DNA of 8,954 nucleotides from NCBI GenBank assembly GCA_001871075.1, contig MNUP01000011.1, positions 1 to 8,954 of the forward strand. The letters are read 5' to 3'. The notes below the pieces were generated by a model. That model ran no database searches and was not told where the DNA came from. It worked only from the letters and a program-made list of their open reading frames with translations. Positions 3,856 through 8,954 of the stretch are shown here, piece after piece. Numbering within the stretch: position 1 is the first letter of the stretch; every line of letters begins with the position of its first letter. The translations under genes and the position numbers were made by a program. Source of the DNA: Candidatus Desantisbacteria bacterium CG1_02_49_89. Its GTDB lineage: Bacteria; Desantisbacteria; UBA1551.

Positions 3856-3960
3856 TAACCACAGGTTAACACAGGTTTCCGCCATAATAATTGGCGGACC
3901 CGCCAGTCTTTTGGGCGGGAACACTCCCTAATATATTTTTACAGGGAACTTAAGAGAACT
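3855..3960. repeat. 106-bp duplicated spacer element, copy 1
   Basis: Identical to 6116-6221 except one base (T at 3937, C at 6198), so 105 of 106 match. Inside are a CACAGGTTAACACAGGTT direct repeat and three consecutive stems: TCCGCC 3878-3883 with GGCGGA 3893-3898, CCCGCC 3899-3904 with GGCGGG 3914-3919, and TCCCT 3925-3929 with AGGGA 3943-3947. It begins on the last base of the rpiB-like stop codon. The two copies flank the pair of TIM-barrel genes. Confidence 0.95.
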
Positions 3961-4009: not shown

Positions 4010-4019
4010 AAAGGGCTTT

Positions 4020-4085
4020 AATCACCTTAATCATTTTTAAATAATCACCGTAATCATCTTTTAGAAATCACTGTAATCAAGGAGG
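4020..4085 (+). promoter_or_regulatory. Tandem 14-bp leader units running into the ribosome site
   Basis: Three units with consensus AATCACYGTAATCA lie at 4020-4033, 4043-4056 and 4066-4079, exactly 23 bases apart. The last is one base before GGAGG (4081-4085), which serves the ATG at 4092. Related units precede the next two genes. The role is unknown; a protein-binding array on one helix face, an RNA leader or an inert tandem repeat are all possible. Confidence 0.65.
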
Positions 4086-4091
4086 ATGTAA

Positions 4092-5162: not shown

Positions 5163-5193
5163 AAGAAAGTTGTAACATCGCAATCTATTTCAT

Positions 5194-5234
5194 AATCACT
5201 GTAATCTGTTTAAAAAATCACTGTAATCAAGGAG
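5194..5234 (+). promoter_or_regulatory. Two 14-bp leader units running into the ribosome site
   Basis: AATCACTGTAATCT (5194-5207) and AATCACTGTAATCA (5216-5229) are 22 bases apart. One base later comes GGAG (5231-5234), six bases before the ATG at 5241. The last unit is identical to that at 4066-4079. A decayed third unit may lie around 5172-5186. Confidence 0.65.
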
Positions 5235-5240
5235 CAAAAA

Positions 5241-6119: not shown

Positions 6120-6221
6120 CCACAGGTTAACACAGGTTTCCGCCATAATAATTGGCGGACCCGCCAGTCTTTTGGGCGGGAACACTCCCTAATATATCTT
6201 TACAGGGAACTTAAGAGAACT
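6116..6221. repeat. 106-bp duplicated spacer element, copy 2
   Basis: Matches 3855-3960 at 105 of 106 bases, at a distance of 2261 bases. The stop codon of the second TIM-barrel gene (6117-6119) lies inside its left end. The same stems are present at 6139-6144/6154-6159 and 6160-6165/6175-6180. Both copies end at the same base within the GAACTTAAGAGAACT word, then diverge abruptly. Confidence 0.95.
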
Positions 6222-6289: not shown

Positions 6290-6296
6290 AATATTT

Positions 6297-6336
6297 TATC
6301 GCTGAAATCGTTATTTTAAATCGCTGTAATCGGAGG
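6297..6336 (+). promoter_or_regulatory. Two 14-bp leader units (G variant) overlapping the ribosome site
   Basis: TATCGCTGAAATCG (6297-6310) and AATCGCTGTAATCG (6319-6332) are 22 bases apart. The last base of the second unit is the first base of GGAGG (6332-6336), four bases before the ATG at 6341. Both units carry the same A-to-G changes relative to those before the TIM-barrel genes, as if homogenised locally. Confidence 0.6.
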
Positions 6337-6340
6337 TTAA

Positions 6341-7219
6341 ATGAAAGTTTTAATAACGGGCGGGAGCGGGAACCTTGGAAGGTACGTTGTGGAGGAAGTA
6401 AAAAGCCGCGGGCACGAAGTCGCGGTCTTTGACGCGAAAGAGCCGCGGGACAAAAGCGTTAAATTCATAAAAGGGGACCTTCTTAAGCTCGCGGACCTGG
6501 AAAACGCCTGCAAGGGCATAGAGGCGATCATCCACCTGGGAGCGATCGCTAACCCGACACTTGCGGAGCACGAGGTCGTTTTCAACGTGAATGTGATGGG
6601 AACTTACAACGCCCTTGAAGCCGCAATGAAAAATAAGGTCAGGAGGTTCGTGCTGGCGAGCTCTGATTCAACGCTGGGGTTCCTTTTCAGGGCAAGCCCG
6701 CCTTTAATGCCGCAATACCTGCCTATTGACGAGGACCATCCCCTGGAAGCTGAGGACCCTTACGGCCTGAGCAAGAAGGTGGATGAAGAAGTATGCCTTA
6801 TGTTTACGCGCAGGTACGGTATTGAAACCGTATGCCTCAGGATATGTTTTGTCTGGTTCCCGGATGAATTCAGGTACGGGGACAATGTCGGCTCGCCTGA
6901 GAATTACCGTGGGCTTACGCAGAATGCCGATGTATGGGGCCCGGGATTATGGGTTTACCAGGACGCAAGGGACGCGGCTCAGGCGTTCAGGCTGGGCGCT
7001 GAAACACCCGGGATAAAACACGAGAGAATATACATATCCGCTGATGAGAGCGGCACTAACGTGGATTCTCTTAAACTAATTGAAAAATATTATCCGTCTG
7101 TTAAAAAGGTGGACAAAGCGAAGCTGAAAGGAAGGGCGTCGCTTATATGCTGCGATAAAGCGAAGAAGATATTGGGATACAAGCCGAAGTATTCGTGGCA
7201 GGATTTGTTTAACAAATAG
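6341..7219 (+). CDS. NAD-dependent epimerase/dehydratase (extended SDR), probable sugar or uronate oxidoreductase
   Basis: 292 residues. The N-terminal Rossmann motif TGGSGNLG is at 6-13, and D31 at the end of the second strand favours NAD over NADP. The catalytic pair Y141-K145 (YGLSK) is intact, with S107/S108 and S110/T111 available as the third residue. LRICFVW and the later W-VYQDARDAAQAF segment are typical of extended SDRs related to UDP-sugar epimerases and uronate dehydrogenase. It acts in the cytosol; the substrate is not determined. In an inositol cluster without a visible IolG, it could supply the polyol or uronate oxidation step, but a nucleotide-sugar role is also possible. GGAGG at 6332-6336 sets the start. 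The terminal G of its TAG stop is the first base of the GAACC/GGTTC array. Confidence 0.85.
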   Translation: MKVLITGGSGNLGRYVVEEVKSRGHEVAVFDAKEPRDKSVKFIKGDLLKLADLENACKGIEAIIHLGAIANPTLAEHEVVFNVNVMGTYNALEAAMKNKVRRFVLASSDSTLGFLFRASPPLMPQYLPIDEDHPLEAEDPYGLSKKVDEEVCLMFTRRYGIETVCLRICFVWFPDEFRYGDNVGSPENYRGLTQNADVWGPGLWVYQDARDAAQAFRLGAETPGIKHERIYISADESGTNVDSLKLIEKYYPSVKKVDKAKLKGRASLICCDKAKKILGYKPKYSWQDLFNK

Positions 7220-7378
7220 AACCGGTTCATGTTTTGAACCTTATAGGTTCTGGATATAAAGAACCGGTTCACAATCATCAGAACCAGGTTCATAAGCATT
7301 AGAACCAAGGTTCCTAATCTTGAGAACCGGTTCACAAGCTTTAGAACCGTGGTTCTTAAATACCGAGAACCAAGGTTT
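7219..7378. repeat. Eight-unit palindrome array, GAACC-N(0-5)-GGTTC, about 21-bp period
   Basis: Units: 7219-7228, 7236-7250, 7261-7270, 7281-7291, 7302-7313, 7324-7333, 7344-7355 and 7367-7378 (last one ends GGTTT). Centre-to-centre spacings are 19.5, 22.5, 20.5, 21.5, 21, 21 and 23 bases. Seven of eight units have perfect GAACC and GGTTC arms while the central bases vary (none, A, AA, GT, TTATA). Five consecutive linkers are exactly 10 bases and resemble one another (ACAATCATCA, ATAAGCATTA, CTAATCTTGA, ACAAGCTTTA). Two-turn spacing would put all dyads on one DNA face, as for a cooperative repressor or nucleoprotein array. Confidence 0.9.
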
Positions 7379-7419
7379 ATAGATCTTGAGCTATTTTTAT
7401 GGTCAATGCAAGCAGTTTC

Positions 7420-7459
7420 CCCTGAACCTGATGCCGTTGAATCAATGAATGGTTCAGGG
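7420..7459. other. 9-bp stem-loop CCCTGAACC / GGTTCAGGG
   Basis: CCCTGAACC (7420-7428) and GGTTCAGGG (7451-7459) are perfectly complementary around a 22-base loop. They contain the same GAACC/GGTTC half-sites as the array 40 bases upstream. No T-run follows immediately, so terminator function is doubtful. Confidence 0.6.
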
Positions 7460-7494
7460 TTAAATAAAAAAATTCATAAAAAAGCGTTTTTTGC

Positions 7495-7524
7495 TTGACA
7501 AATATATTTATTAAAATATATTAT
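7495..7524 (+). promoter_or_regulatory. Candidate sigma-70 promoter for the lipoprotein gene
   Basis: A perfect TTGACA (7495-7500) is followed by TATATT (7517-7522, 16-base spacer) or TATTAT (7519-7524, 18-base spacer), each 5 of 6 to TATAAT. Strong A+T runs surround it. Transcription from here would give a leader of about 170 bases before the GTG at 7701. The flanking A+T richness raises the chance of an accidental match. Confidence 0.5.
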
Positions 7525-7593
7525 ATATATTGATAAAAATTTTAGTACTTAGCCTACCATTATAAAAAAACAATCCTAAAAAGTTCTTGGGGG

Positions 7594-7629
7594 TTGTCCA
7601 CAGAAAAAAAATTGTAAGTGGGACAATTT
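7594..7629 (+). promoter_or_regulatory. Overlapping alternative stems in the lipoprotein leader
   Basis: AAATTGT (7609-7615) pairs perfectly with ACAATTT (7623-7629). The overlapping GTGGGACAA (7618-7626) can instead pair with TTGTCCAC (7594-7601) with one bulge. The two stems are mutually exclusive. Apart from the promoter, the stem-loop at 7420-7459 and this site, I see nothing further in the A+T-rich gap 7379-7700. Confidence 0.35.
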
Positions 7630-7700
7630 AAGGGAAAGGAATTTTTTTCGCAATTTTTGATACATATAAAAAATAGAGAAATTAACTTTAGGAGGTTTCA

Positions 7701-8759
7701 GTGAAGAACAAATATAAGATATATTGGATACTGGGAGCTGTAATGCTCCTGTTTATAACGGGCTGCAATATTTCATCCGCTGGATGGATAGCAGCCGATA
7801 CGATTACGTCATCATGGTGCGGCGATTCCTCCAGTTCGATTGTTTGGATGCCAAGTTCATCCAGGGTTTATATAGCCTATTATGATATTTATGACCAGCT
7901 TTGGGGATATCGTAATATTTTTCCCAGAAAAGGATCCGGTGCTTGGTCTAATCCGGTAATAGATGATAACTCCGGTGTTGGAAAATCGCTGAGCCTGGCT
8001 GTATCACCCACTAATGGTAATGCGTATGTCGCATATTATTATCAACTTACAACCAACCTAAAATATGCCACGGCTTATCCGGATTATGAATGGGATTCCA
8101 TAACTCTTCATACGAGCGCAGGCGATATTGGATGGAATCCTTCGATGTGTTTTGATTCTTCAGGGAATTCATATGTAACTTATCTTGACTCAAGCACATG
8201 TTCCGTGTTATTAATTGACAGATTTGCCACGCCTCTTGCGGTAGACGGGTCCGCGCTGGGGAACAGCGTGGGAATGTACAGTTCAGTCGGGTTTACAGGA
8301 AGTAACGTGCCTTTGATCGCGTATTATGACCAGGGAAACAAGAGGTTAAAACTCGCTGATAAATACGGAGGCGGATGGAACAGGAGAGTGATCGATTCCG
8401 GCGATGTGGGAGAATATCCCGCCATGGGAGTAAACGGGGAGACTTTTTATATTGCTTATAAAGATAATCCCAAACAGGCAGTAGTGCTCGCTTACGGGAA
8501 CACTACTTCCTGGAACACAAAGGTAATTGATGCGTCGGGTGACGGAACATACACGCACATAGTGGTAATTCCAGGAGCCGTAAGAGACACTATTTGCATA
8601 GTTTATCAGGGAATAGGGCCTAATGGTTTGTCAGTGCTGATGGCAAAAAGCACAAACAGCGGGGCAAGTTTTAACACTGAAGTAGTTGCACATACGCCGG
8701 GGAAAAATATTTCTGCCTGGAAAACAGGAACAAACGAGATCATAGTGTGGTGTCTCTAA
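7701..8759 (+). CDS. Predicted lipoprotein with sialidase/beta-propeller-like repeats
   Basis: 352 residues from a GTG start, chosen because GGAGG at 7691-7695 lies five bases upstream and the N-terminus is a proper lipoprotein signal: lysine-rich start, hydrophobic segment 9-20, and lipobox ITGC with the acylated cysteine at C22. The mature part has six to seven loosely similar units of about 45 residues, each with a W, a V-D/ID-G strand pair and a YxAYYD-like strand (for example VYIAYYD, AYVAYYY, PLIAYYD, FYIAYKD), as in six- or seven-bladed propellers. It would be exported and membrane-anchored. No catalytic Asp-box triad is evident, so binding or structural roles are as likely as hydrolysis. 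It is richer in A+T than the catabolic genes, has its own promoter candidate, and is separated by a 481-base gap, so it is probably a separate unit. Confidence 0.8.
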   Translation: MKNKYKIYWILGAVMLLFITGCNISSAGWIAADTITSSWCGDSSSSIVWMPSSSRVYIAYYDIYDQLWGYRNIFPRKGSGAWSNPVIDDNSGVGKSLSLAVSPTNGNAYVAYYYQLTTNLKYATAYPDYEWDSITLHTSAGDIGWNPSMCFDSSGNSYVTYLDSSTCSVLLIDRFATPLAVDGSALGNSVGMYSSVGFTGSNVPLIAYYDQGNKRLKLADKYGGGWNRRVIDSGDVGEYPAMGVNGETFYIAYKDNPKQAVVLAYGNTTSWNTKVIDASGDGTYTHIVVIPGAVRDTICIVYQGIGPNGLSVLMAKSTNSGASFNTEVVAHTPGKNISAWKTGTNEIIVWCL

Positions 8760-8778
8760 CAGATCTTTACATTTGGGC

Positions 8779-8863
8779 TGTCATTGCGAGGAGTGTTAAC
8801 GACGAAGCAATCTCGACCTAAAAATCGAGATTGCCACGCTCCCTTTGGTCGCTCGCAATGACA
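8779..8863. repeat. TGTCATTGCGAG-type palindromic intergenic repeat
   Basis: TGTCATTGCGAG (8779-8790) and CTCGCAATGACA (8852-8863) are perfect 12-base terminal inverted arms. An inner stem GCAATCTCGA (8807-8816) / TCGAGATTGC (8825-8834) closes an 8-base loop, and the segments between are only partly complementary. This word family is a familiar dispersed repeat in many bacterial genomes. Further out, ACATTTG (8769-8775) and CAAATGT (8878-8884) also pair. It may act as a bidirectional transcript end after the lipoprotein gene. Confidence 0.85.
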
Positions 8864-8954
8864 ACTCAAAGCAGAATCAAATGTCAAGGGATTTATGTAA
8901 CACCACAATAGTTTCTTTTACCTTGCCTGGCAGAAGGTTGATGTATGTAGAACA
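8864..8954. other. Unassigned right edge
   Basis: Beyond the palindromic repeat I see no supported feature. Short frames on both strands run open to the edge (plus strand from 8881; minus strand ending at 8877), but neither is long enough to judge. Confidence 0.4.

Follow-up and report, generated by a model that had tools for sequence, protein, structure and literature searches.

A head-to-tail array of GAACC/GGTTC palindromes that begins on a stop codon in Candidatus Desantisbacteria: a possible gene-end hairpin cluster

The 8,954-nucleotide window analysed here, which is the entire contig C131 of the 2.48-Mb assembly of Candidatus Desantisbacteria bacterium CG1_02_49_89, carries at positions 7219-7378 an array of eight GAACC/GGTTC dyads that begins on the stop codon of an enzyme gene. 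We give roughly even odds (about 0.5) to the reading that this is an old tandem palindrome array in the 3'-UTR of the upstream enzyme operon, where its transcript would form a hairpin cluster at the gene end and work in the manner of REP/BIME elements. Most likely, the array belongs to a style of repeat that is frequent in one genome of the same order: intergenic, arranged head to tail, and starting at or across the preceding stop codon.

Structure and origin of the array

The array lies on the 3' side of an NAD-dependent epimerase/dehydratase gene (6341-7219, + strand), the last in a series of sugar/TIM-barrel enzyme genes that all run in the same direction, and its first base is the final G of that gene's TAG stop codon (7217-7219, +). 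Seven of the dyads, none of which is assigned to a strand, are perfect: dyads 1 (7219-7228), 3 (7261-7270) and 6 (7324-7333) have no central bases, while the arms are separated by TTATA in dyad 2 (7236-7250), by A in dyad 4 (7281-7291), by AA in dyad 5 (7302-7313) and by GT in dyad 7 (7344-7355). The eighth, GAACCAAGGTTT (7367-7378), has a single arm change, to GGTTT, which keeps a G-U pair in the + strand RNA. Centre lengths run 0, 5, 0, 1, 2, 0, 2 and 2 along the array, and the linkers between dyads measure 7, 10, 10, 10, 10, 10 and 11 bases, five consecutive ones being exactly 10. Linker length is the tightest quantity in the array (five of seven identical); the distance between dyad centres shifts with the length of the dyad centre, ranging from 19.5 to 23 bp (mean 21.3). 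The original prediction, made from the letters of the window, had described eight units with seven intact arm pairs, centres of 0 to 5 bases, five consecutive 10-base linkers with a shared consensus, and a start on the stop codon, and all of these were borne out. Further downstream are a promoter-like site, TTGACA-N16-TATATT (7495-7522, +), 117 bp beyond the array, and a gene (7701-8759, +) that has a GTG start preceded by AGGAGG and a lipobox-like LFITGC, and that falls in no Pfam family.

Pairwise identity among the linkers was 52%, compared with 31% after shuffling (P 2e-4), and TRF also reported a 63-bp period, corresponding to a three-unit block repeated about twice. Self-palindromicity of the linkers was not significant (P 0.09). 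In the arms, 1 of 80 positions was off consensus, versus 15 of 50 in the five 10-base linkers (Fisher P 1.5e-6), and the same word was preserved in 15 of 16 half-sites, supporting the constraint on the arms that had been proposed; the indels of the array are located at the palindrome centres. No comparable array arose when the sampled sequence was dinucleotide-shuffled. Because the linkers share ancestry and the arms are well kept, the array is an old tandem duplication from one ancestral unit, with its arms preserved. The earlier contention that it looked like something "rather than decayed satellite DNA" was thus too strong, as the array did arise via tandem duplication.

The locus stands alone in its genome. 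A search for GAACC-N(0-5)-GGTTC arrays found no second run of such dyads in the 2.48 Mb, other than chance-like pairings of a dyad with a half-site, and 28 lone dyads occur elsewhere. Within 375 kb of sampled contigs from the same genome, this was the only tandem array of palindromic units. Between the genes of this assembly, arrays of 7-10-bp words abound, frequently with the reverse complement of the word next in line. Such short intergenic iterated words recall the STRR-like repeats of cyanobacteria, which are short direct 7-mer words iterated between genes. They also recall the TAACTGA repeats of Beggiatoaceae, 7-mer word repeats found mostly directly before start codons (PMC4679880). Both kinds differ from the window's array in being direct 7-mer repeats that lack a palindrome in each unit.

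Palindromic arrays in a relative of the same order

The comparison set for the phylum consisted of one other genome, from the same order (G001), of which 199 kb was sampled. Between the genes of these 199 kb there were ten tandem arrays of palindromic units, against none in 10 shuffles; gene calls came from a simple ORF rule, and the stretches were partly chosen via earlier matches, so that density and placement are approximate. The periods were 17, 23-28, 33, 36-37 and 50 bp. Examples include GTCGAGTAAACTCGAC with CACTACAATT (period 26, at several loci), GGTC(N4)GACC with TACTT (period 17), and TCAGGACTTTAGTCCTGA-type units (periods 26-37). As in the window, the units retain their arms while their centres vary, e.g., GGTC(ATCA/GTTA)GACC and GTCGAG(TTTA/ATTG/CTTG)YTCGAC. 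No GAACC array was found in G001, and its words differ from GAACC; the kinship is therefore one of style, not of sequence. The relative's arrays are also fresher, with near-identical copies, and its GTCGAG word, unlike the word of the window, recurs at several loci, with GTAG in front of it. One array in that genome, on its own contig C131 at 42390-42592 (L197 12390-12592), consists of at least eight GTAGTGGTCGAG-N4-YTCGAC units with a GTAG tag, and is REP/BIME-like.

Eight of the ten G001 arrays follow a gene in the same orientation and begin no more than 20 nt from its stop codon, which in some cases falls inside the first unit (e.g., ...GTCGAG|TAA|ACTCGAC). When the window's array was added and the test was limited to co-directional cases, nine of nine arrays had stop-adjacent starts, compared with a mean of 4.8 under random placement (P 2e-4); the other two G001 arrays (L152 7169 and L199 2378) have no stop codon at their start. 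Adjacency to the stop codon and retention of the arms are therefore common to the window's array and those of the relative, but the 21-bp period is not. The two-turn phasing in the original prediction does not extend to the arrays of the relative, and exact 21-bp phasing was rejected as a shared constraint.

A broader reading is that in this group, which branches deeply and has hardly been sampled, gene ends have been remodelled throughout the lineage by palindromic tandem arrays that grew from stop codons, the stop itself being part of the first unit in some cases, as a way of making 3' ends distinct from both tagged REPs and U-tract terminators; we think this doubtful. Should arrays that start on stop codons prove common across the group, they would represent either a distinct gene-end signal or a record of the birth of hairpin repeats at that position.

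Predicted hairpins at the gene end

On the + strand, the array is predicted to fold into three RNA hairpins, formed by dyads 1-3 (7219-7270; -27.2 kcal/mol, z -7.0), dyads 4-6 (7281-7333; -23.7 kcal/mol, z -6.8) and dyads 7-8 (7344-7378; -15.3 kcal/mol, z -4.6). Single dyads with centres of 0-2 bases are poor hairpins on their own, and the strong fold depends on pairing between dyads. A stem-loop with the same half-sites follows at 7420-7459 (+; -17.4 kcal/mol), its 9-bp arms being CCCTGAACC (7420-7428) and GGTTCAGGG (7451-7459), as had been noted. No run of U follows this stem, which is therefore not a classical intrinsic terminator, and a scan of 7000-7800 for a GC-rich stem with a T run found no match on the + strand. 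For the RNA of the wider region (7200-7480, +), the predicted folding energy is -97.5 kcal/mol (z -8.4, with none of 200 shuffles equally good), although any array that repeats one palindrome gains fold energy automatically. Outstanding fold strength was rejected as a distinguishing property: the array region ranks 20th of 93 intergenic regions in its own genome by fold energy per base, and strong long hairpins between genes are ordinary there.

REP/BIME elements resemble the window's array in being extragenic palindromic units, clustered with short spacers and often located just 3' of stop codons, whose RNA forms hairpins. They are defined, however, by their copy number and by a GTAG or CGTC tag (PMC3733652; PMC2817692); most carry one of these tags, and their many copies are dispersed across the genome. 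Compared with the REP unit of 20-40 bp, the array is likewise intergenic and clustered, but its palindromes measure 10-15 bp and a unit plus its linker about 21 bp. Its units are consecutive at one locus, the only other copies being the lone dyads, and the bases before GAACC vary, mostly ending in A, with no GTAG or CGTC. Matches to Y1_Tnp (RAYT) number 10 in the window's genome (G000) and three in G001, and none is linked to the GAACC word. By copy number and tag, the array is not a REP family.

A role in the 3'-UTR is nevertheless suggested by the position at the stop codon together with the stable hairpins, as in the REP elements of E. coli. In many bacteria, stem-loops are concentrated in the 50 bp that follow stop codons (PMC1590033). 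In E. coli, ribosomes can stall at REPs located 15 nt or less from a stop, and REPs and other stable structures block exoribonucleases (both as stated in PMC12306157). We postulate that the RNA of the operon would fold into two or three long hairpins, together with the 7420-7459 stem, and that these may slow 3'-to-5' exonucleases, impede ribosomes or polymerase where the gene ends, or both, which would separate the output of the operon from that of the next gene. The array could have grown by slippage at the hairpins, its arms being preserved by selection for pairing or, less likely, for recognition of the word. Against a gene-end hairpin cluster stands the retention of one word by all eight dyads, with no swap to other words that would pair, which recognition by a protein explains better.

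Alternative explanations and neighbouring repeats

The first alternative is a neutral satellite, in which a palindromic unit was duplicated by slippage or template switching and tolerated although functionless, its arms being homogenised by hairpin-templated copying or recombination. The common ancestry of the linkers, the 63-bp block, the wealth of intergenic short-word repeats in the genome, and the location of indels at palindrome centres, where slippage predicts them, are all consistent with such a history. The disparity between arms and linkers, however, would demand a special homogenising process confined to 5-bp arms, and we regard this explanation as rather unlikely.

A second alternative, which we consider improbable, is a multi-site DNA-binding array: a protein would occupy each GAACC half-site, the eight dyads being spaced by about two turns of the helix, and would act on the promoter at 7495 or on the local structure of the DNA. 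The best argument for it is that the word has stayed strictly the same while the linkers drifted, and a linker length of mostly exactly 10, the good promoter-like site downstream, and the exactly 22-bp period of similar units at four loci of an unrelated Bacteroidaceae genome (described below) also favour it. Set against these are the uniqueness of the array in its genome, centres of 0-5 bases that are unsuited to one rigid dimer, the lack of any regulator gene on the contig, and the periods of 17-50 bp in the same-order genome. Nor did we find the same sites at several promoters, as in a multi-site operator regulon, the dyad run being confined to a single locus. The operator or architectural array favoured by the original prediction is thus weakly supported, and less likely than a gene-end hairpin cluster. 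The half-sites resemble the SOS box of Gram-positive bacteria, a LexA box of the GAAC-N4-GTTC type, and dyads with a 2-base centre match its spacing. The exact fit extends to two of the eight dyads, however, and no SOS gene lies nearby.

A pattern scan of 84,980 genomes returned 71 stretches. The majority were two-unit matches such as chance would produce (judged as a group rather than individually), and a small number of unrelated genomes contained multi-unit arrays. Viral contigs gave one two-unit match, and comparisons of the region with phages and plasmids gave just short, insignificant matches. In Bacteroidaceae RGIG4445, four loci (L078 5785-5862, L092 1695-1772, L101 3426-3503 and L123 3112-3189) each carry four GAACC(AT/AC)GGTTC-type units with a 22-bp period and partly position-specific linkers, one end unit having GGTCC; these are more promising as a multi-site protein-binding array than is the array of the window. 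Bacteroides sp. E01__bin330 has three intergenic loci (L089 6412-6545, L104 6994-7125 and L109 6961-7090), each with six GGAAC/GTTCC palindromes at a 22-bp period. In Treponema sp. Nc350_bin204, a palindromic array (L094 5249-5690) with a period of about 23-24 bp changes its arms along its length from TTCCG/CGGAA to GGAACC/GGTTCC.

Finally, a larger structured RNA, either a leader or a small RNA, that would cover about 7200-7480 and function through the long multi-branch fold, is suggested by an outer stem that closes the entire region in RNAfold, but is very unlikely, given that the array region has no Rfam match at the gathering score, that there are no relatives for covariation, and that single-palindrome repeats inflate fold scores.

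The window contains several other repeats. A 101-bp intergenic block (CCACAGGTTAACACAGG...) with hairpins occurs twice, at 3860-3960 and 6121-6221 (99% identical), beginning at or a few bases from two different stop codons. The word TAATCACYGTAATCA... is repeated at 4019-4090, 5190-5240 and 6292-6340, ending in AAGGAG directly before ATG; it has dozens of copies across the genome, so that Shine-Dalgarno sequences appear to be borne on a dispersed repeat. At 8743-8911 lies a MITE-like element of about 170 bp, bounded by the terminal inverted repeats GTGTGGTGTCTC.../...ACACCACA and containing a TCATTGCGAG hairpin. Across the genome it has about 50 near-identical matches, of which many lie at the ends of contigs and some are chained head to tail with 4 bases in common. 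Contig C78 ends in a sequence identical to the end of the window's contig (8735-8935).
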